From: Aquabacterium commune | GTDB taxonomy: Bacteria; Pseudomonadota; Gammaproteobacteria; Burkholderiales; Burkholderiaceae_C | Assembly (NCBI RefSeq): GCF_004362855.1 | Contig: NZ_SNXW01000003.1 | Span: 124,001 to 188,000 of the forward strand | Length of the DNA: 64,000 bases | Direction: 5' to 3' | Part shown: in pieces, positions 3,297-45,695 of the stretch | How the letters are laid out: each line of letters starts with the position of its first letter | Numbering within the stretch: position 1 is the stretch's first letter | Made by a program: the position numbers and the translations under genes | The notes under the pieces: generated by a model | The model's database searches: none | What the model was told of the DNA's origin: nothing | Seen by the model: only the letters and a program-made list of their open reading frames with translations

Positions 3297-5890
3297 TGGC
3301 CGTGGACGTCGGCACCCTGCGTGCGCAGTTCCGCGCAGACAAGGCCGCCCTGGTCGCGCAGTTCCAGCACAGCCGCCCGAGCACCTCGTCGGCCACGCGC
3401 TTGCTGACGCACCTGGCGCGGCTGGTGGACCGCACCCTGCACACCCTGTGGGACGCCCACGCCATGCCCCGCGGCGCCGCCCTGGTGGCGGTCGGCGGCT
3501 ATGGCCGCGGTGAGCTCTTCCCCTCCTCTGACATCGACGTGCTGCTGCTCATGCCGCTGTCGCCCTCGGTGGCGGGCGACGAGAGCCTGGCGCCGGCACT
3601 GGAAAGCTTCATCAGCGCCTGCTGGGACATCGGCCTGGAGATCGGCTCCAGCGTGCGCACCGTCGCGGAGTGCAGCGAAGAGGCCATGCGCGACGTCACG
3701 GTGCAGACCTCGCTGCTGGAGTCGCGCTTCCTGTGCGGCTCGCGCGCCCGTTTCGAGGAGCTGGAGCGCGCCACCCGAGAGCACCTCGACGTGCCGGCCT
3801 TCGTCACCGCGAAGATGCTGGAAATGCGCCAGCGCCACACCAAGCACGAGGACACGCCCTACGCCCTGGAGCCGAACTGCAAGGAAAGCCCTGGCGGCCT
3901 GCGCGACCTGCAGGTGGTGATCTGGCTGGCACGCGCCGCCAAGCTGGGCCGCAGCTGGCACGAGCTGGCCCGCAATGGCCTCATCACCGCCTTCGAAGCC
4001 CGCCAGCTGCAGCGCAACGAGGGCACGCTCAAGCTCATCCGCGCCCGCCTGCACCAGATCGCCGGCCGCCGCGAAGACCGCCTGGTGTTCGACCTGCAGA
4101 CCGCCGTGGCCGAAAGCTTCGGCTACACGAACACGCCGGCCCTGCGCGCCTCCGAGGTGCTGATGCGGCGCTACTACTGGGCCGCCAAGGCGGTGACCCA
4201 GCTCAACCAGATCCTCATCCTCAACATCGAAGAACGCGTGCAGGGCAGCACCGACGCGCCCATGCGCCCCATCGACGCGCGCTTCTTCGACCGCGGCGGC
4301 TACCTCGAAGTCGCCAGCGACGACCTCTACCAGCGCGACCCGCACGCCATCCTGGCCACCTTCCTGACGCTGCAGGAACAAGACGGTGCGCTCAAGGGCC
4401 TGTCAGCCCGCACCCTGCGCGCGCTCTACAACGCCCGCGACCTGATGGACGGCGCCTTCCGCCGCGACCCGGTCAACCGGGCCACCTTCATGTCCATCCT
4501 GCAGCAGCCGGCCGGCCAGACCCGCGTGATGCGCCTGCTCAACCAGACCTCGGTGCTGGGCCGCTACCTCTGGGTGTTCCGCCGCATCGTCGGGCAGATG
4601 CAGCACGACCTCTTCCACGTCTATACCGTGGACCAGCACATCCTGATGGTGGTGCGCAATGTGCGGCGTTTCTTCATCCCGGAGCACGCCCACGAATACC
4701 CCTTCTGCACGCAGCTGGCCGCGCAGTTCGACAAGCCCTGGCTGCTCTACATCGCCGCCCTCTTCCACGACGTGGCCAAGGGTCGCGGCGGCGACCACTC
4801 CGACCTGGGCAAGGTCGAGGTGCGGCGCTTCTGCAAAGACCACGGCATCGACAGCGATGACACCAAGCTCGCCGAGTTCCTGGTGGGCGAGCACCTGACC
4901 ATGTCGCGCGTGGCGCAGAAGGAAGACCTGTCCGACCCGGACGTCATCCAGGCCTTCGCCAAGCGCGTCGGCAACGAGCGCACGCTGACCGCGCTTTACC
5001 TGCTGACCGTGGCCGACATCCGCGGCACCAGCCCCAAGGTCTGGAACGCCTGGAAGGGCAAGCTGCTCGAAGACCTGTACCGGCTCACGCTGCGGGCCCT
5101 GGGCGGCGCCCGCCCGCACATGGACGCCGAAATCGAATCGCGCAAGCAGCAGGCCCGCCAGAGCCTGGCGCTCTACTACATGCCGCCGAACATCGAGGTG
5201 CCGCTGTGGAAGACGCTGGACATCAGCTACTTCGCGCGCCACGATGCGCCAGACATCGCCTGGCACACCCGCATGCTGTGGCGCCATGTGGAAACCGACA
5301 AGCCCGTGGTGGCCGCGCGCCTGTCGCCCGTGGGCGAAGGCCTGCAGGTGCTGGTGTACGCGCCCGACCGCCCGGACGTGTTCGCGCGCATTTGCGGCTA
5401 CTTCGACCGCGCCAGTTTCACCATCCAGGACGCCCGCATCCACACCTCGGTGACCGGCTATGCGCTGGACACCTTCCAGATCCTGGCCTCCGACCCGCTG
5501 CGCTTCGAAGGTGTGCACTACCGCGACATGATCGCCCTGGTCGAGAACCAGCTGGCCGAAGCCGTGTCCTCTGACAAACCGCTGCACGAGCCCGCCAAGG
5601 GGCGGCAGTCGCGCCGCGTGCGCTCTTTCCCGATCGCGCCGCGCGTCAGCCTGCGCCCCGACGAGCGCGCCCAGCGCTGGCTGCTGACGGTGTCGGCCTC
5701 GGACCGCTCCGGCCTGCTCTACGTGATCGCGCGCACCCTGGCCCGCCATGGCGTCAACGTGCAACTGGCCAAGGTCAGCACCCTGGGCGAACGTGTGGAA
5801 GACACCTTCCTGGTGACGGGCGATGCCCTGCGCCAGGACAAGCAGCAGCTCACCATCGAGACGGAATTGCTGGACGTGCTGGCGGCCTGA
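3296..5890 (+). CDS. glnD: [Protein-PII] uridylyltransferase / uridylyl-removing enzyme
   Basis: Senses glutamine and uridylylates or de-uridylylates the PII proteins, setting glutamine synthetase activity and nitrogen gene expression. It has 864 residues, the normal length. In order: the nucleotidyltransferase motif [16 protein letters not shown] (residues 67-82, catalytic D79 and D81); a GlnD helical linker with [13 protein letters not shown]; the HD domain with [13 protein letters not shown] (H491, D492) for deuridylylation; and two C-terminal ACT domains (about 690-860). The start ATG lies in a TGATG overlap with the map stop, so the longer upstream open frame is not used. Confidence 0.97.
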
Positions 5891-10095: not shown

Positions 10096-11364
10096 TCAGA
10101 TGTCGAACAGCAGGCGGGCCGGATCTTCCAGCGCTTCCTTCATGGCCACCAGGCCCAGCACGGCTTCGCGGCCGTCGATGATGCGGTGGTCATAGGACAT
10201 CGCCAGGTAGTTGATCGGGCGCACCACCACTTGACCGTTTTCCACCACGGCGCGGTCCTTCGTGGCGTGCACGCCCAGGATGGCCGACTGCGGCGGGTTG
10301 ATGATCGGCGTGGACAGCATCGAACCGAAGGTGCCGCCGTTGGAGATGGAGAAGGTGCCGCCGGTCAGGTCGTCCAGACCCAGCTTGCCGTCACGGGCCT
10401 TGGCACCGAATTCAGCGATCTTCTTCTCGATTTCAGCGAAGGTCATCTGGTCCGCATTGCGCAGCACCGGCACCACCAGGCCACGGGGCGAGCCCACGGC
10501 CACGCCGATGTCGAAGTAGCCGTGGTAGACCACGTCGTTGCCATCGACCGAAGCGTTGATCACCGGGTACTTCTTCAGGGCATGCACTGCCGCCTTGACG
10601 AAGAAGCTCATGAAGCCCAGCTTGACGCCGTGTTCCTTCTCGAACTTTTCCTGGAACTTCTTGCGCATCTCCATCACCGGGGCCATGTTCACTTCGTTGA
10701 ACGTGGTCAGGATGGCGTTGGTGGCTTGCGACTGCAGCAGGCGCTCGGCCACACGGGCACGCAGGCGGCTCATCGGCACGCGCTGCTCAGGACGTTCGCC
10801 CAGGGTGTTCGGACCGGTGGGGATGCTCACGGCCGGCAGGGCCTTGGTGGGCACACCGGTCGGGATCGCGGCAGCCGCAGGCGCTGCGGCAGGCTTGGCG
10901 CCACCGGCCACGGCGGCCAGCACGTCGCCCTTGGTCACGCGGCCGTCCTTGCCGGAACCCGCGACTTGCGCCGTGCTCAGGCCGTTGTCGGCCAGCAGCT
11001 TGGCGGCGGCGGGCATGGCCACATCGCCCTTGTTGCCACCGGTGGCGGCAGGTGCGGCAGCCGCAGGGGCCGAAGCAACGGCGGCCACTGGCTTGATTTC
11101 CAGCGGGCTGACCGCAGCAGAGCCTTCGGTGTCGATGCGGGCGATGACCTCGTCGCTGGCGACGGTGTCGCCGTCGTTGCGGACGAGTTGTGCGATCACG
11201 CCAGCGGCCGGTGCGGGCACTTCCAGCACGACCTTGTCGGTCTCGATTTCAATGATGATTTCGTCCGCAGCGACAGCTTCGCCGGGGCGCTTCTTCCATT
11301 GCAGCAGCGTGGCTTCGGCCACGGATTCAGAAAGTTGGGGAACCTTGACGTCAACGATTGCCAT
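10096..11364 (-). CDS. sucB: Dihydrolipoyllysine-residue succinyltransferase (E2 of 2-oxoglutarate dehydrogenase)
   Basis: E2 core of the 2-oxoglutarate dehydrogenase complex; transfers the succinyl group to CoA. The 422 residues have a single lipoyl domain (residues 2-75, [14 protein letters not shown], lipoyl-lysine K44) and an Ala-rich linker. Next come a peripheral subunit-binding domain ([21 protein letters not shown]) and a second Ala/Pro linker. The catalytic domain ends with [13 protein letters not shown], which supplies the active-site His. An AGGAGA ribosome site precedes the ATG. It follows sucA after a 107-bp spacer carrying a large hairpin. Confidence 0.97.
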
Positions 11365-11402
11365 GATGTGTATCTCCTGCGGCAGCCGCCTTGCTCGCCA
11401 CC

Positions 11403-11438
11403 GTCCGGACCGTCAGGCTGAGCCTGTCCGGGCCGGAC
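11403..11438 (-). other. Long imperfect hairpin in the sucA-sucB spacer
   Basis: GTCCGG and CCGGAC arms with an inner CAGG/CCTG stem form an imperfect 36-nt hairpin in the mRNA between the sucA stop and the sucB ribosome site. There is no T-tract, so it looks like an mRNA processing or stability element rather than a terminator (inference). Confidence 0.4.
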
Positions 11439-11471
11439 CGGTCTGGGCGACGCAAAGCGCCTGCCATGACC

Positions 11472-14330
11472 TTACTTGGTGAGAACGAAGCCCTTGAGCT
11501 TGGCGAAAGCCTGGTCCAGCAAAGCCTTTTGCTGTTCCTGGTGCAAGTGGGCGTAACCCACTGCCGGCGAAGCCGAGGCGGGACGGCCCGCATAACCCAG
11601 CTTCTGACCGTCGGCCATGTTCTCGTGGATGTAGTGCTGCACGAAGAACCAGGAGCCCTGGTTCTGAGGCTCGTCCTGACACCAGACCATTTCGGTCAGG
11701 TTCGGGTACTTCTTGGCCTCGGCCGCGAAAGCCTTGTGCGGGAAGGGATAGAGCTGCTCGACGCGGATGATGGCCACGTCGGTCGCCTTCTTCTCGGCAC
11801 GCTTCTTGACCAGGTCGTAATAGACCTTGCCCGAGCAGGCGATCAGGCGCTTGACCTTGCTGTTGTCGATGGCCTCGTCCACCTCACCGATCACGGTGCG
11901 GAACTCGCCGCGGGTGAACTCGGTCAGCGGCGAGGTCGCGTCCTTGTTACGCAGCAGCGACTTCGGCGTCATGATGACCAGCGGCTTGCGGAACATGCGC
12001 ACCATCTGGCGACGCAACACGTGGAAGATCTGCGAGGCCGAGGTCGGCTGCACGATCTGCATGTTGTTGTCGGCGGCCAGCTGCATGAAGCGCTCCAGGC
12101 GGGCCGAGCTGTGCTCGGGGCCCTGGCCTTCGTAGCCGTGCGGCAGCATCAGGGTCAGGCCATTGGCACGGCCCCACTTCACTTCGCCTGACGCGATGAA
12201 CTGGTCGATCACCACCTGGGCGCCGTTGGCGAAGTCGCCGAACTGCGCTTCCCAGATGACCAGGCTGTTGGGGTCGGAGCCGGCATAGCCGTACTCGAAG
12301 CCCAGCACGGCCTCTTCGGACAGGATGGAGTCGATGACGACGTACGGGGCCTGGTTGTCGGCCACGTGCTGCAGGGGGACATAGGTGCCCTCGTCGAACT
12401 TCTCGCGGTTCTGGTCGTGCAGCACCGAGTGGCGGTGCGTGAAGGTGCCACGACCGCAGTCTTCGCCAGACAGGCGCACCGGGTAGCCCGAAGCCACCAG
12501 CGAGGCAAACGCCATGTGCTCGCCCATGCCCCAGTCCACATTGACTTCGCCTCGGCCCATGGCGGCGCGGTCGTCGATGACCTTCTGCACCAGCGGGTGA
12601 GGCTTGAAGTTGGCGGGGACGGTGGTGATGCGCTCGGCCAGGCGGCGGAACTCGGCCAGCGGCAGGGCCGTGTCGGCGGAGTCGGTCCACTTCTTGTTCA
12701 AGAAGGGCGTCCAGTCAACGGCGTACTTGCTCTTGAAGTTGGTCAGCACCGGGTCCACCGTGTGCTTGCCGGCTTCCATGGCGGCGCGGTAGCCCTTGAC
12801 CATGTCGTCCGGACCGGTGGGGGGCAGCGTGCCGCCACCGACCAGGCGGTCACCGTACACCTTGCGGGTGCCGGGATGCTGGCCGATCTTCTTGTACATC
12901 AGCGGCTGGGTCATCGACGGCGTGTCCTGCTCGTTGTGACCGAGCTTGCGGAAACACACGATGTCAACGACCACGTCTTTGCTGAACTGCTGGCGGTAGT
13001 CCAGGGCCAGCTGGGTGGCGAACACCACGGCTTCCGGATCGTCGCCATTGACGTGCAGCACCGGGGCTTCGATCATCTTGACGACGTCGGAGCAGTACAG
13101 CGTCGAGCGGGTGTCGCGCGGGTCGGAGGTGGTGAAGCCGATCTGGTTGTTGATGACGATGTGCACCGTGCCGCCCGTGTAGTAACCACGGGTCTGGGCC
13201 AGCGCCAGCGTTTCCATCACGACGCCCTGGCCTGCGAAGGCGGCGTCACCGTGCACCTGCACCGGCAGCACTTGCGTGCCCTTGGCGTCGCCACGGCGGT
13301 CCATGCGGGCCTTGACCGAGCCTTCGATCACCGGGTTGACGATTTCCAGGTGCGAGGGGTTGAAGGACAGCGAGAGGTGAACCGGGCCGCCAGCGGTGGA
13401 GACATCGCTGGAGAAACCCTGGTGGTACTTCACGTCGCCAGCGGGCAGGTTCTCAGGCGCGGTGTGCTCGAACTCGGAGAACAGCTCGGCAGGTTGCTTG
13501 CCCAGCGTGTTGACCAACACGTTCAGGCGGCCGCGGTGGGCCATGCCGATGACGATTTCCTGCACGCCCTTTTCGCCGGCGCGCTGGATGAGTTCGTCCA
13601 TCGAGGCGATGAAGGATTCACCGCCTTCCAGCGAAAAGCGCTTTTGGCCAACGTACTTGGTGTGGAGGAATCGCTCCAGACCTTCGGCTGCAGTCAGTCG
13701 CTCGAGAATGTGCTTCTTCTTCTCGGCGCTGAAGGTCGGCTTGGAGCGGGTGCTCTCCAGGCTTTCCTGCCACCAGCGTTTTTCGGTGGGGTCGGTGATG
13801 TGCATGTACTCGGCGCCGATGCTGCCGCAGTACGTCTCACGCAAGGCCTGCACGATTTCGCGCAGGGTCATGTGCTCGGCCTTGGTGAAGTAGGTGTTCG
13901 TCGCCGAGAAGGTGATGTCCATGTCCGACTCGGTGAAGTCGTAGAAGGACGGTTCAAGCTCGGGGATCTTGGCGCGTTCCTGGCGCTTGAGCGGGTCCAG
14001 GTCGGCCCAGCGGGAGCCCAGGAAGCGGTAAGCAGCGATCAGGGACTGGACGTGGACCTGCTTGCGGGCGACAGCGAGGTCGGCCGAACTGGTCTTGATC
14101 ATGAAGGCGTTGGCCTTCGCACGTTGAGCGAAAGACTCGACCACGGGGGCATGCGCCACATCGCGGTGGTCGGAGCCATCCACAGCAGGAACGTTCTGGA
14201 GGGCGTCGAAGTAGGAGCGCCAGTTGTCTGGCACCGAACCGGGGTTGTCGAGGTAAGCCTCGTACAACTCTTCAACGTATGGGGCATTGCCCCCGAACAG
14301 GTACGAGTTCGACCTGAACTGCTGCATCAT
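11472..14330 (-). CDS. sucA: 2-oxoglutarate dehydrogenase E1 component
   Basis: Thiamine-diphosphate-dependent E1 of the TCA cycle complex; decarboxylates 2-oxoglutarate and succinylates the lipoyl group of SucB. The 952 residues are the usual length. It starts MMQQFRSNSYLFGGNAPYVEELYEAYL, the E1o N-terminal motif. Other marks are GMAHRGRLNVLVN, the ThDP-binding GDAAFAGQGVV with a downstream NNQIGFTT, and SGEDCGRGTFTHRHSVLHDQ. The C-terminus is the PDH-like transketolase end (WCQDEPQNQGSWFFVQHYI). Two consecutive ATG codons could start; an AAGGTGAG ribosome site precedes them. First gene of the operon. Confidence 0.97.
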   Translation of the reverse strand: MMQQFRSNSYLFGGNAPYVEELYEAYLDNPGSVPDNWRSYFDALQNVPAVDGSDHRDVAHAPVVESFAQRAKANAFMIKTSSADLAVARKQVHVQSLIAAYRFLGSRWADLDPLKRQERAKIPELEPSFYDFTESDMDITFSATNTYFTKAEHMTLREIVQALRETYCGSIGAEYMHITDPTEKRWWQESLESTRSKPTFSAEKKKHILERLTAAEGLERFLHTKYVGQKRFSLEGGESFIASMDELIQRAGEKGVQEIVIGMAHRGRLNVLVNTLGKQPAELFSEFEHTAPENLPAGDVKYHQGFSSDVSTAGGPVHLSLSFNPSHLEIVNPVIEGSVKARMDRRGDAKGTQVLPVQVHGDAAFAGQGVVMETLALAQTRGYYTGGTVHIVINNQIGFTTSDPRDTRSTLYCSDVVKMIEAPVLHVNGDDPEAVVFATQLALDYRQQFSKDVVVDIVCFRKLGHNEQDTPSMTQPLMYKKIGQHPGTRKVYGDRLVGGGTLPPTGPDDMVKGYRAAMEAGKHTVDPVLTNFKSKYAVDWTPFLNKKWTDSADTALPLAEFRRLAERITTVPANFKPHPLVQKVIDDRAAMGRGEVNVDWGMGEHMAFASLVASGYPVRLSGEDCGRGTFTHRHSVLHDQNREKFDEGTYVPLQHVADNQAPYVVIDSILSEEAVLGFEYGYAGSDPNSLVIWEAQFGDFANGAQVVIDQFIASGEVKWGRANGLTLMLPHGYEGQGPEHSSARLERFMQLAADNNMQIVQPTSASQIFHVLRRQMVRMFRKPLVIMTPKSLLRNKDATSPLTEFTRGEFRTVIGEVDEAIDNSKVKRLIACSGKVYYDLVKKRAEKKATDVAIIRVEQLYPFPHKAFAAEAKKYPNLTEMVWCQDEPQNQGSWFFVQHYIHENMADGQKLGYAGRPASASPAVGYAHLHQEQQKALLDQAFAKLKGFVLTK

Positions 14331-42734: not shown

Positions 42735-43040
42735 ATGACCCGCACCCACACCCCCTTGTCCACCCTGGCCCTGACGATCGCGCTTGGCACCGCCTTCGCG
42801 ACCTTGCCGGCCGCAGCCGCAGAGGCCAGCGCCAAAGAGAAGTGCTACGGCGTGGCCCTCAAGGGCAAGAACGACTGCGCGGCCGGCCCCGGCACCAGCT
42901 GCGCTGGCACCTCCAAAACCGACCACCAGAGCGATGCCTGGAAGTTCGTGCCCAAGGGCACCTGCGAGAAGTTGGCCTCCAAGACGTCGCCCAGCGGCTT
43001 CGGGCAACTGGCCGAGTTCAAGGCTGGCAAGAAGTCCTGA
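42735..43040 (+). CDS. bufA1: Bufferin-type RiPP precursor, DUF2282 family (BufA1-like)
   Basis: A 101-residue exported Cys peptide. A Sec signal peptide ([20 protein letters not shown], cleavage near residue 29) precedes a mature chain with four Cys: [20 protein letters not shown] (C37, C48), then C56 and C77 in the GTC motif. This spacing is the canonical DUF2282/BufA1 set. In this family a MNIO enzyme converts Cys side chains, reported as thiooxazole in Caulobacter, to give a copper-sequestering periplasmic peptide. It has a 7-bp gap to bufB. First gene of the operon; the ribosome site GAGA is modest. Confidence 0.9.
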
Positions 43041-43047
43041 GCCAGCC

Positions 43048-43905
43048 ATGGCAACCTCCACGCGCCCTGCGCCCCTGCCAGCGCGTGCGGGGCTGGGGCT
43101 CAAACCTCAGCATTTCAAGGACGTGCTGGCGCAATGCCCCGACATCGGCTTCTTCGAGGTGCATGCCGAAAACCACATGGTTGACGGCGGGCCCTTGCCG
43201 CACTTCCTGGCACGCATCCGCGAGCGCTACCCGCTGTCGCTGCACGGCGTGGGATTGTCGATGGGCGGCGAAGCCCCGCTGGACGAAGCCCACCTGCAGC
43301 GCCTCAGCGATCTGATCGAACGCTGCGAGCCCGCGGTGTTCTCAGAGCACCTGGCCTGGTCCAGCCATGGCGGGCACAGCCTCAACGACTTGCTGCCACT
43401 GCCTTATGACGGTGACACGCTGCACCGCGTCTGCCGCCACATCGACCAGGTCCAGTCCCGCCTGCGGCGCCAGATCCTGCTGGAGAACCCGGCCACGTAC
43501 CTGGCCTTTGCATCGTCCACCTTCAGCGAAACCGACTTCCTCGGCGAGGTGGTGCGACGCACCGGGTGCGGCCTGCTGCTGGACCTCAACAACGTCCACG
43601 TGTCCTGCACCAACCATGGGCTGGATGCAGACGCCTACATCGACGCCCTGCCGCTCCATGCGGTGGGCGAGGTGCACCTGGCCGGCCATGCCATGGACGA
43701 GGACGCCGCCGGCGCACCTTTGCTGATCGACCACCACGGCAGCCCGGTGGACGAGTTTGTGTGGCGCCTGCACGAGCGCCTCATTGCGCGCCTGGGGCCT
43801 CTGCCCACCCTGCTGGAGCGCGACAACGACGTGCCCAGCCTGGCCGCCCTGTTGACCGAAGCCAGCCGGGCCGAGCGCACCTTGGCGCGCTGGAGTGCCG
43901 CATGA
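43048..43905 (+). CDS. bufB: MNIO-family (DUF692) RiPP maturase
   Basis: Multinuclear non-heme iron-dependent oxidative enzyme of DUF692, predicted to modify Cys residues of the BufA1-like precursor. The 285 residues form a TIM barrel. Conserved metal/active-site candidates are H66 (LSLHGVG), E100 and H101 (FSEHLAW), E146 (LLENP), D179, N181 and H184 (LLLDLNNVHV), H210 and H214 (EVHLAGH), and D228/H229 (DHHG). The ATG giving MATSTRPAPLPARAGLGL follows the bufA1 stop by 7 bp. Its stop overlaps the bufC start (ATGA), giving translational coupling. Confidence 0.92.
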   Translation: MATSTRPAPLPARAGLGLKPQHFKDVLAQCPDIGFFEVHAENHMVDGGPLPHFLARIRERYPLSLHGVGLSMGGEAPLDEAHLQRLSDLIERCEPAVFSEHLAWSSHGGHSLNDLLPLPYDGDTLHRVCRHIDQVQSRLRRQILLENPATYLAFASSTFSETDFLGEVVRRTGCGLLLDLNNVHVSCTNHGLDADAYIDALPLHAVGEVHLAGHAMDEDAAGAPLLIDHHGSPVDEFVWRLHERLIARLGPLPTLLERDNDVPSLAALLTEASRAERTLARWSAA

Positions 43906-44684
43906 ACCAGGCCTCTTTCGCCGCCGCCTTGCTGGACCCCGACCTGCCCTGCCCCGCAGGCCTCACGGTCTGGAATGGGTCGGACCCGACGCGCCGCCTG
44001 GCGGTGCACCGCAACAACGTCGTGGTGTCGCTGGTCGATGCCCTGGCCGACACCTTCCCTGTCACGCAACAACTGGTGGGCGAAGACTTCTTCCGCGCGA
44101 TGGCACGCGCTTTCGTGCTGCAGTCGCCGCCCACATCGCCCGTCATGGTGTTCTATGGCGAAGCTCTGCCGGATTTCATTGCCGACTTCGGGCCGGCACA
44201 GGCACTCCCCTGCCTGGCCGACATGGCCCGGCTGGAAATGGCCAGGGTGCGGGCCTGCCACGCGGCCGACGCGCCCCTGTTGACCCAGGCTGGCATCGAC
44301 ATGGCCCTGTCCCACGCTGGTCGCGTGGACGAACTGCGGCTGGTGTGCCACCCCTCTGTCGCACTGTGCCAATCGCGGCACGCCGTGGTGTCGCTGTGGG
44401 CAGCCCACCAGGACGAGGCCCAGCTCGACCAGCTGGCCTCGCTGGACCTGGCGCAGCCCGAATCGGCGCTGGTCCTGCGCCAGGCGCTCGACGTGGTGGT
44501 GGTGCCCGTGCCTCATGGCGCCGCCCAGTTCACACAGGCCCTGCTGGCGCATCAGGGCCTGGCGCAGGCCGCAGCACACGCAGTGGCGGCCGACGCGCAC
44601 TTCAACCTCACCGAGACCTTGCGCCTGTTGCTGGCGCAGGGCGCGATCACATCCATCTTCCAGCCCCCAGGGGACGCACCATGA
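43902..44684 (+). CDS. bufC: DUF2063 family protein (BufC-like, RiPP maturase partner)
   Basis: 260 residues, first ATG overlapping the bufB stop. The N-terminal DUF2063 domain has LAVHRNNVVVSLVDALADTFPVTQQLVGEDFFRAMARAF in its usual form (about residues 32-70; quoted in part). The C-terminal half is a winged-helix-like domain ending with the LTETLRLLLAQGAITS element. In this class of operons, DUF2063 proteins are thought to present the precursor to the MNIO enzyme. Its stop overlaps the doxX start (ATGA), so bufB-bufC-doxX are tightly coupled. Confidence 0.9.
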   Translation: MNQASFAAALLDPDLPCPAGLTVWNGSDPTRRLAVHRNNVVVSLVDALADTFPVTQQLVGEDFFRAMARAFVLQSPPTSPVMVFYGEALPDFIADFGPAQALPCLADMARLEMARVRACHAADAPLLTQAGIDMALSHAGRVDELRLVCHPSVALCQSRHAVVSLWAAHQDEAQLDQLASLDLAQPESALVLRQALDVVVVPVPHGAAQFTQALLAHQGLAQAAAHAVAADAHFNLTETLRLLLAQGAITSIFQPPGDAP

Positions 44685-45214
44685 ACACGCCATCGATGAA
44701 ACACACCTCGCAAGCCGCCCCACTGGCTTGGCCCGTCCGCACGACCCAGGCCCTCATCGGCGCGTGCGAACGCTTTCCGCACAGCCTGCTGGCCTTGCTC
44801 GCACGCTTCTCGATCGCGGCGGTGTTCTGGAGCTCAGGCCAGACCAAGGTCGAGGGCTTCGTGCTGAACATCGTCAGCGGCGAGTTCGTGTTGGGCTGGC
44901 CGAGGCTGTCGGACGGCGCGCTGGCGCTGTTCCAGGAAGAGTACCGATTGCCCTTCCTGCCCCCGGAGATCGCCGCACCGATGGCCGCAACGGCCGAGCA
45001 CCTGTTGCCGATGCTCATCCTGATCGGCCTGGGCACGCGCTTTTCGGCCTTGGGGCTGCTGGGCATGACGGCGGTGATCCAGCTTTTCGTGTATCCCGGC
45101 GCCTACGCAACCCACGGCACCTGGGCGGCGGTGTTGCTGGGCCTGATCGTGCGAGGCCCAGGCGTGCTGTCCCTGGACCACCTGCTGGCGCGCCACTTCC
45201 AGCGGCCGGTCTGA
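44681..45214 (+). CDS. DoxX-family membrane protein of the bufferin operon
   Basis: A 177-residue integral membrane protein of the DoxX/SURF4-like group. About four membrane helices are evident, including LLARFSIAAVFWSSGQTKVEGF and HLLPMLILIGLGTRFSALGL, and one near the C-terminus (WAAVLLGLIVRGPG). DoxX proteins commonly accompany MNIO/DUF2063 pairs; their exact role is unknown, and thiol redox or membrane electron supply has been proposed. It overlaps bufC by four bases and is followed within 15 bp by the first Cys-rich peptide gene. Confidence 0.9.
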   Translation: MNTPSMKHTSQAAPLAWPVRTTQALIGACERFPHSLLALLARFSIAAVFWSSGQTKVEGFVLNIVSGEFVLGWPRLSDGALALFQEEYRLPFLPPEIAAPMAATAEHLLPMLILIGLGTRFSALGLLGMTAVIQLFVYPGAYATHGTWAAVLLGLIVRGPGVLSLDHLLARHFQRPV

Positions 45215-45228
45215 GGTAAATTGCAGCC

Positions 45229-45462
45229 ATGTCCCGCGTGTTCGCCATCGCCATTGCCCTGCTGCTTGTCTTGCACACGGCATGGGCGGCTGCGCGACCG
45301 GTCCACACTTGCTGTGAAGGCGCGAGTTGCCCAGACATCGCCATGTGCCTGGGCACAGGCTGCCATCCCGGTGACAGTCAGGCCGTTCTGGTTGACGGTG
45401 GCGTGCTTCCTGCCCATGCGCCCGCCACCCATGCGGCACGCCTTGTGATCTCGCCTGCCTGA
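45229..45462 (+). CDS. Small exported Cys-rich protein, unrecognised family
   Basis: A 77-residue product with a clear signal peptide (MSRVFAIAIALLLVLHTAWA, cleavage after residue about 21). The mature part has five Cys: C28 and C29 (HTCCEG), C34 and C40 (CPDIAMC) and C45 (GTGCHPG). The rest is Ala/His/Val-rich with no clear motif. I do not recognise the family. It starts 14 bp after doxX, so it probably belongs to the operon. The CPDIAMC segment resembles CGDIACC in the next gene. Possible roles: metal binding or a second maturase substrate (inference). Confidence 0.7.
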   Translation: MSRVFAIAIALLLVLHTAWAAARPVHTCCEGASCPDIAMCLGTGCHPGDSQAVLVDGGVLPAHAPATHAARLVISPA

Positions 45463-45484
45463 ACCCTTCCATTGGAGAAACCCC

Positions 45485-45619
45485 ATGACATCCAGATTCA
45501 CCAAGATCACCGTGGCCCTCGCCCTGTTCAGCGCATCCGCTGCGGCATGGGCGTCCAACGTGTGCTGCGGCGACATCGCCTGCTGCCTCCAGCAGATGAT
45601 GGATTGCTGCCTGCACTGA
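45485..45619 (+). CDS. Tiny exported six-Cys peptide, unrecognised family
   Basis: A 44-residue product with a signal peptide (MTSRFTKITVALALFSASAA, cleavage near residue 24). The mature part of about 20 residues has three CC pairs: C27/C28, C33/C34 and C41/C42 (NVCCGDIACC, MMDCCLH). It also has a Met-Met pair and a C-terminal His. The GGAG ribosome site 7 nt upstream is good and the gene ends just before a strong terminator. The motif CGDIACC matches CPDIAMC in the neighbouring 77-residue protein. I know no family for it; a copper or zinc ligand peptide or a modified RiPP substrate is plausible (inference). Confidence 0.65.
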   Translation: MTSRFTKITVALALFSASAAAWASNVCCGDIACCLQQMMDCCLH

Positions 45620-45664: not shown

Positions 45665-45695
45665 GGGGCGGCTCCTCAAGGGGCCGCCCCTTTTT
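45665..45695 (+). terminator. Rho-independent terminator ending the bufferin operon
   Basis: GGGGCGGCTCC and GGGGCCGCCCC pair (one G-U) over a TCAA loop and are followed by five T. It lies 46 bp past the 44-residue gene and just short of the convergent guaA stop. Confidence 0.9.

Follow-up and report, generated by a model that had tools for sequence, protein, structure and literature searches.

CutF and CruR are described in the literature as metal-sensing translation-arrest leaders that have been studied in detail. In Rhodobacter capsulatus, the gene for CutF precedes cutO, which encodes a multicopper oxidase; CutF is reported to depend on a CxxxC motif, on a C-terminus rich in Pro and on a stem-loop that covers the Shine-Dalgarno sequence of the following gene (PMC9973294). 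The criteria given in that report for CutF-like proteins are a length below 150 aa, a signal peptide, Pro-Pro in the last 15 residues, a stem-loop that shields the Shine-Dalgarno sequence, a following gene close by on the same strand, and a metal-dependent translation delay; CzcI of Cupriavidus is described there as being without a C-terminal proline motif. CruR of Bordetella pertussis, a DUF2946 protein, is reported to work via Rho on a TonB-dependent transporter operon, with an arrest that depends on its RAPP motif (PMC9426467, PMC12992588), and to vary by no more than one or two residues in the distance between CXXC and RAPP (PMC9426467). Many of the bufferin precursors described in PMC12452194 are unlinked to MNIO genes, and the MNIO substrate models of that study include CxxxxC and EGKCG.

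The gene pair in the window

The window, a stretch of 64,000 nucleotides from Aquabacterium commune, contains an operon of BufA-like, BufB, BufC and DoxX genes, the last genes of which are two short ORFs, here named P1 and P2, followed by a terminator-like hairpin. The features are as follows.

42735–43040, + strand: bufferin precursor gene (DUF2282, BufA-like); PF10048 at E 1.2e-25, NF050166 at 23 of 60 bits and thus below cut-off.
43048–43905, + strand: MNIO bufferin maturase BufB; PF05114 at E 4.7e-104, NF050167 at 378.8 bits (cut-off 310).
43902–44684, + strand: BufC, DUF2063 partner protein; PF09836 at E 4.9e-27.
44681–45214, + strand: DoxX-family membrane protein; PF07681 at E 6.2e-14.
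45217–45222, + strand: -10-like box TAAATT of a putative promoter, 6 nt 5' of the P1 start codon and just behind doxX.
45229–45462, + strand: P1, Cys-cluster peptide of 77 aa with a putative signal peptide; probable degenerate CutF-like leader, its WxPP tail lost here.
45414–45415, + strand: gap of ~68 bp in a pairwise alignment with L114 (G026); the WRPPP segment is absent from the reading frame.
45474–45477, + strand: Shine-Dalgarno-like GGAG of P2, matching AAGGAG at 4 of 6 positions.
45485–45619, + strand: P2, 44 aa, CCGDIACC...CC, with a putative signal peptide; member of a conserved family.
45665–45695, + strand: site resembling an intrinsic terminator, at the end of the operon; stem-loop at 45665–45690 with an 11-pair stem, then TTTTT.

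P1 begins 14 bp past doxX and P2 22 bp past P1, where a preliminary description of this DNA had placed them, and the six Cys of P2 do form three CC pairs. The signal peptides of both products are putative, being positive, hydrophobic and small-residue segments judged by eye. That description recognised neither family, and both peptides indeed fall below every curated cut-off in Pfam and NCBIfam; no family above cut-off was obtained for any of 20 P1s. The AlphaFold2 model of P2 is weak (pLDDT 65, pTM 0.28), with helices at residues 3–26 and 31–42. A literature search that did not extend to the supplements of the CutF and MNIO papers gave no paper on P1-P2, and P1 may already stand in those supplements as an unnamed entry.

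Conservation and distribution

P1-P2 is a real, conserved and separate two-gene unit of Burkholderiales. Clear relatives of P2 (E < 1e-5) are present in 7 of 100 related genomes, the own genome included, and a P2 profile matched in at least 9 of 399 genomes of the family. The order-wide search yielded 19 of 399 genomes at E <= 0.01; 10 of the 20 listed places were read, and on that reading at least four genomes carry P2 (the own genome, G816, G767 and G550), G792 (CCDGGRCCAEQQPCC) being excluded as borderline. A genome scan, using an alignment of 6 of the 14 P2 sequences of the preceding alignment, produced 17 P2 loci from 57 pattern matches, distributed over Aquabacterium, Aquincola, Roseateles, Pelomonas, Ideonella, Duganella and other Burkholderiales or Oxalobacteraceae.

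Searches starting from P2 led to 25 loci; at 22 of these P1 lies immediately 5' of P2, and at three (L116, L084 and L067) no P1 can be recognised. Conversely, a P1 profile matched in at least 11 of 250 genomes, and a P2-type peptide adjoins it in all 11; as with the family-wide and order-wide P2 searches, at most 18 or 21 candidates were scored per genome, so that this count is a lower bound and absences are uncertain. Three of the loci found through P1 were new, which brings the total of P1-P2 or P2 loci to 28. P1 measures 77–100 aa and is separated from P2 by 21–62 nt (22 copies), and P2 measures 42–45 aa.

In nine pairs, dN/dS was 0.09–0.33 for P2 and 0.09–0.67 for P1, with P1 above P2 in eight, and both ORFs look to be under purifying selection. 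P2 of the window is intact, with dN/dS of 0.10–0.12 against two genomes of the same genus.

Some loci deviate in detail. Aquabacterium parvum has a second P1-P2 copy downstream of lipB-lipA (L117/L069), in which a shortened P2 has two CC pairs only. At L067 (G041), the locus with an unrecognisable P1, P2 has CWL in place of CCL. P1-P2 or P2 lies near lipB-lipA in three same-genus genomes (L065, L067 and L069).

Cysteine motifs and rejected identities

The preliminary description drew attention to CPDIAMC in P1 and CGDIACC in P2 as a shared CxDIAxC motif. Both strings are literally present; as a functional motif, CxDIAxC is ruled out, since P1 relatives do not keep it. Among 25 P1s it occurs in the window copy only, the others reading CGDPAMC, CDAVMAC and the like, and even where two other genomes of the genus have P1 in this operon, it reads CPDTAMC and CPDTAIC. 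Judged from these sequences, its occurrence in both peptides is a coincidence. Loss of conservation, of either the ORFs or the motif, had been named beforehand as grounds for refutation: the motif fails in P1, and the ORFs are conserved.

What most P1s keep is a cluster CC-x3/4-C-x4/5-C-x3/5-C together with a C-terminal WxPP; CC-x3-C, which contains CxxxC, is found in 16 of 22 copies. The conserved unit of P2 is CC-G-D-[ILV]-x-CC-...-CC, which is looser in distant copies, and divergent P2s retain the three CC pairs.

Several resemblances to known families were considered and set aside. P1 gave a match at E <= 1 in all of 100 genomes, and most of the listed matches cover its residues 24–45; the long frame matched by these residues reads VCEEASCPNIGEC in L065. 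NCBIfam scores lipoyl synthase against P1 at E 0.046. We judge this likeness to LipA to be accidental because P1 relatives lose it. MerT matches P1 at E 0.017 (15.6 of 32.9 bits) over residues 3–34, mostly the signal-peptide region, and P2 relatives match PtrA and ExtJ weakly, at best E values of 0.043 and 0.015. DUF2946 did not match any of 20 P1s at E up to 10, and RAPP was also absent from them.

Anatomy of P1

WxPP terminates 21 of 22 P1 copies and the three that were found later, and the same copies have Pro-Pro within their last 15 residues; the window copy does not. The distance from the CC pair to the Trp is 55–60 residues (sd 1.08), over a linker that is itself unconserved, and the distance from the start to the CC pair is more variable (25–33 residues, sd 2.16); both figures refer to 20 P1s, excluding L114 and L117, the window copy (no WxPP), and L182 and L183 (no CC). 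The latter are two distant P1s in which WxPP is present and the CC cluster absent. In size and spacing P1 agrees with CutF-like proteins, with 77–100 aa and the next gene on the same strand (77 aa and 22 nt in the window). By analogy, the anatomy of P1 is that of the CutF and CruR metal-sensing translation-arrest leaders.

Transcription signals and spacer folding

Of 22 P1 copies, 17 carry a TANNNT box 5–7 nt 5' of the start codon; once near duplicates are removed, the count is 15 of 19. Elsewhere in these upstream stretches, such a box occurs at a background rate of 15 in 2354 offsets. No clear -35 motif was found upstream of it, and no sigma-70 site in the stretch of the window. Tetramers resembling a Shine-Dalgarno sequence precede 6 of 22 P1 starts, and AAGGAG is matched at five or more of its six positions before 15 of 22 P2 starts. 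Past P2, 22 of 25 loci have a terminator-like hairpin; among random windows the count is 73 of 932. From the box near the P1 start, the few Shine-Dalgarno sites of P1, the frequent ones of P2 and the terminator, P1-P2 looks like a compact transcription unit with a leaderless first gene. An Rfam match over the terminator was below threshold (20.9 of 39 bits) and is taken as chance.

Folding was compared with dinucleotide shuffles for the stretch that covers the last 24 nt of P1 and the spacer up to the P2 start codon; across 22 loci this stretch folds beyond them (Stouffer -5.14, with controls in P1 and P2 coding sequence at -0.79 and -0.48), a value that is optimistic because the loci are related. 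Single loci reach p <= 0.025 in 7 of 22 cases, and z lies above -0.4 in 10. The excess is absent from the window (z +0.93), and also from two same-genus genomes in which WRPPP is kept (z -0.30 and -0.03). The WxPP codons pair more strongly with the Shine-Dalgarno sequence of P2 at their own locus than with those of other loci (-9.02 versus -7.60 kcal/mol; permutation p 0.0018, likewise optimistic given related loci; n=18, without L113, L114 and L117 and without the window, which has no WxPP). In 8 of 21 loci, the pairing of the P1 tail with the own P2 Shine-Dalgarno sequence ranks 10th or worse among foreign combinations.

Proposed roles of P1 and P2

By analogy with CutF and CruR, we consider it probable that P1 is a nascent-chain sensor leader for metal (or thiol-redox state) that controls P2, a metal-buffering effector. 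Translation of P1 would use an mRNA whose 5' end coincides with the P1 start codon or lies close to it, and the signal peptide of P1 would bring the nascent chain to the Sec translocon, so that the CC-C-C-C cluster would meet metal (or oxidant) outside. The Trp-x-Pro-Pro at the C-terminus, nearly fixed at 55–60 residues past the cluster, would then pause the ribosome, and this pause would alter the P1-P2 spacer and thereby control P2; the spacer is predicted to fold, and in part of the loci the WxPP codons may tie up the P2 Shine-Dalgarno sequence. As the effector, P2 would mature to ~20 residues bearing six thiols and, resembling a mini-metallothionein, may serve as a periplasmic buffer for a soft metal, for example Cu(I). 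The preliminary description had offered a role as metal-binding partner, and such a role is plausible for P2. Observed directly are the gene pair, its anatomy, its conservation and the fold excess of the group as a whole; export, arrest, metal sensing, the direction of control and metal binding are inferences. Findings that count against a leader of this type are the missing match to DUF2946 or any other family among 20 P1s, the lack of RAPP, the loci with poorly ranked pairing (8 of 21) or with fold z above -0.4 (10 of 22), the two distant P1s without a CC cluster, the three P2 loci without P1, the loci at which no metal gene was recognised, and the window copy without arrest tail.

P1 and P2 might instead be structural partners, such as a metal buffer or a disulfide-linked pair, with the IWxPPD end of P1 acting as a docking tail and not as an arrest sequence. 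Both peptides are Cys-rich with putative signal peptides, they are encoded 21–62 nt apart under apparent purifying selection, and a conserved C-terminus can serve as a binding motif. However, a partnership leaves unexplained why the CC-to-W spacing is nearly fixed over an unconserved linker, why the spacer is structured, and why dN/dS is higher for P1 than for P2 in eight of nine pairs, and we regard it as unlikely, albeit the best of the alternatives to a sensor leader.

Relation to bufferin operons

The preliminary description took P1 and P2 for possible further substrates of the MNIO maturase encoded upstream. Their Cys residues would then be oxidised to thiooxazole-type groups in the cytoplasm, and the exported peptides would chelate copper as bufferins do. 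The pair lies behind the bufferin operon in the window and in two other genomes of the genus (G009 and G026), and bufferin precursors share Sec signal peptides and may be unlinked or in tandem (PMC12452194). Outside these three loci, which make up the part of the 28 for which the tail of a bufferin operon is a correct description, MNIO is absent from the fetched flanks (<1 to ~10 kb) of all P2 loci. Nine DoxX genes found at E < 1e-20 in 100 genomes each stand behind bufB- and bufC-like genes, with P1-P2 next, within the stretch read, in the same three. In 40 further MNIO regions P1 had no tblastn match, and seven of these regions have a DoxX match in the operon (L127, L129, L132, L133, L136, L138 and L160). 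Of 16 bufferin operons with a DoxX match (nine from the DoxX search, seven from the MNIO regions), three end in P1-P2 and 13 are without it, and the position of the pair lends no support to modification by that MNIO.

All 22 P2-positive genomes that were searched (G318 and the genome of L120 were left out) encode an MNIO somewhere, so that modification in trans is conceivable; the corresponding count for the family is 126 of 200, which takes in P2-positive genomes, and the 22 are non-independent, so that relatedness inflates the co-occurrence. The bufferin precursor models (DUF2282 and BufA2) match neither P1, in Pfam and NCBIfam, nor P2 (window copy in Pfam and NCBIfam, 12 members in NCBIfam), and substrates of an MNIO have no need of the features of the P1 tail and spacer. 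Modification of P1 and P2 by an MNIO is therefore rather improbable in our estimation, somewhat more so than a structural partnership, and P1-P2 is wrongly attributed to the bufferin system by position. Overall, the observation made in the preliminary description is partly confirmed and its interpretation partly supported.

Other small Cys-rich ORFs do adjoin bufferin genes. The bufferin operon of Roseateles puraquae (L138) is closely related to that of the window (BufA 82% and BufB 67% identical), and past its doxX, at oriented positions 4718–5041, it has a 107-aa Cys/Lys ORF with repeated CGAK units and a putative signal peptide, a possible extra MNIO substrate that may be counted in favour of this kind of modification. 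The P1-P2 pair of this species sits away from that operon. At L128 (G001), a 77-aa Cys/Lys-rich ORF with a putative signal peptide lies just 5' of a BufB homologue (oriented 2135–2368).

Metal-gene neighbourhoods

Metal genes surround several of the P1-P2 loci, which may be counted in favour of P1 as a metal-sensing leader. The Pelomonas copy (L112) adjoins a heavy-metal P-type ATPase and CadR, both above cut-offs, with another MerR-family regulator below cut-offs and, by eye, an RND pump nearby. The Roseateles puraquae copy (L081) adjoins an RcnA-type exporter and is also beside FrmR/RcnR- and CsoR-type repressors, below cut-offs. Recognised by eye were czcCBA behind P1-P2 in Aquabacterium parvum (L068), a YcnI-like protein and a P-type ATPase near L066 (NCBIfam gave no family for the YcnI-like protein), and a FeoB-like gene near L080. 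At several other P1-P2 loci, no metal gene was recognised nearby.

Two further observations concern these surroundings. At L080, very similar FeoB-like ORFs (by eye) at 661–2589 and 10142–12001 flank P1-P2. At L181 (G151), a His-rich CxxC ORF ending in KPPRA, a leader-like candidate, lies on the reverse strand at ~719–1201 from the start, behind P1-P2 and before an outer-membrane efflux gene (by eye).

A secreted, disulfide-rich antagonist of bacteriocin type, with P1 as partner or immunity peptide, would suit the small, Cys-rich P2 with its putative signal peptide and patchy distribution (at least 9 of 399 family genomes). We think this very unlikely, as neither an immunity nor a transport gene was recognised beside P2 at the loci that were read, metal genes stand near several copies, and a plasmid search gave no P1-P2 match. 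That P1 and P2 are functionless chance ORFs, as their shortness and scores below every curated Pfam and NCBIfam cut-off might suggest, is already refuted because the ORFs are conserved, across genera and with low dN/dS, Shine-Dalgarno-like sites and a terminator, and we give it practically no weight.

The unit in the window and its implications

If P1 is a sensor leader, the window holds a decayed example. Relative to G026, its P1 is missing ~68 bp near 45414, and further downstream the two sequences again differ slightly in length; an LVISP end remains. Since P1 is here without WxPP and the spacer without fold excess, control by P1 is probably gone in the window. With a bufferin operon ahead of the unit and no arrest tail on its P1, P2 is probably expressed together with that operon or by a promoter of its own. 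Most simply, the pair first came to lie behind the bufferin operon and P1 control was lost afterwards.

In its fullest form, our proposal is a self-contained regulon of ~0.5 kb that joins a co-translational metal sensor to a six-thiol peptide of ~20 residues and may be the smallest pair of sensor and effector that handles metal in the periplasm; its arrest codons would double as the anti-Shine-Dalgarno sequence of the effector, and it would be able to settle beside varied metal operons, its control having decayed at the bufferin operon of the window. We offer this tentatively and, taken as a whole, would lean slightly against it. If true, the pair would be a simple two-gene version of an arrest leader whose target is of a new kind: a very small CC-rich peptide, easily missed by gene callers. 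The Trp, the Pro-Pro, the Cys cluster and the spacer are concrete targets for mutation. The locus is also a warning that a gene ending a bufferin operon need not encode an MNIO substrate.

Comparison with known systems

Bufferins, which buffer copper, resemble P1 and P2 in being Cys-rich with signal peptides, those of P1 and P2 being putative, and in the window the bufferin genes adjoin the pair; no bufferin model matches P1 or P2, however, and the two are mostly without an MNIO neighbour. The likeness to CzcI is one of description: CzcI too is small and leader-like and precedes a metal-resistance operon, much as P1-P2 precedes the putative czcCBA in L068.

P1 shares with CruR a putative export signal, a Cys motif, a C-terminal Pro-Pro and a fixed spacing from Cys to Pro-Pro, but it has neither RAPP nor a DUF2946 match, and its spacer is 21–62 nt instead of 162 nt. 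It is like CutF in its short length, putative signal peptide, Cys motif, Pro-Pro near the C-terminus and short spacer, and in part of the loci also in spacer structure near the P2 Shine-Dalgarno sequence. In contrast to CutF, P1 has no family match, ends in WxPP, has a leaderless-looking start and is tailless in the window, and its would-be target is a CC-rich peptide of 42–45 aa in place of an enzyme or transporter. By analogy with these systems, P1-P2 is best read as a unit that would extend the leaders that sense metal during translation to a tiny target of a new kind.
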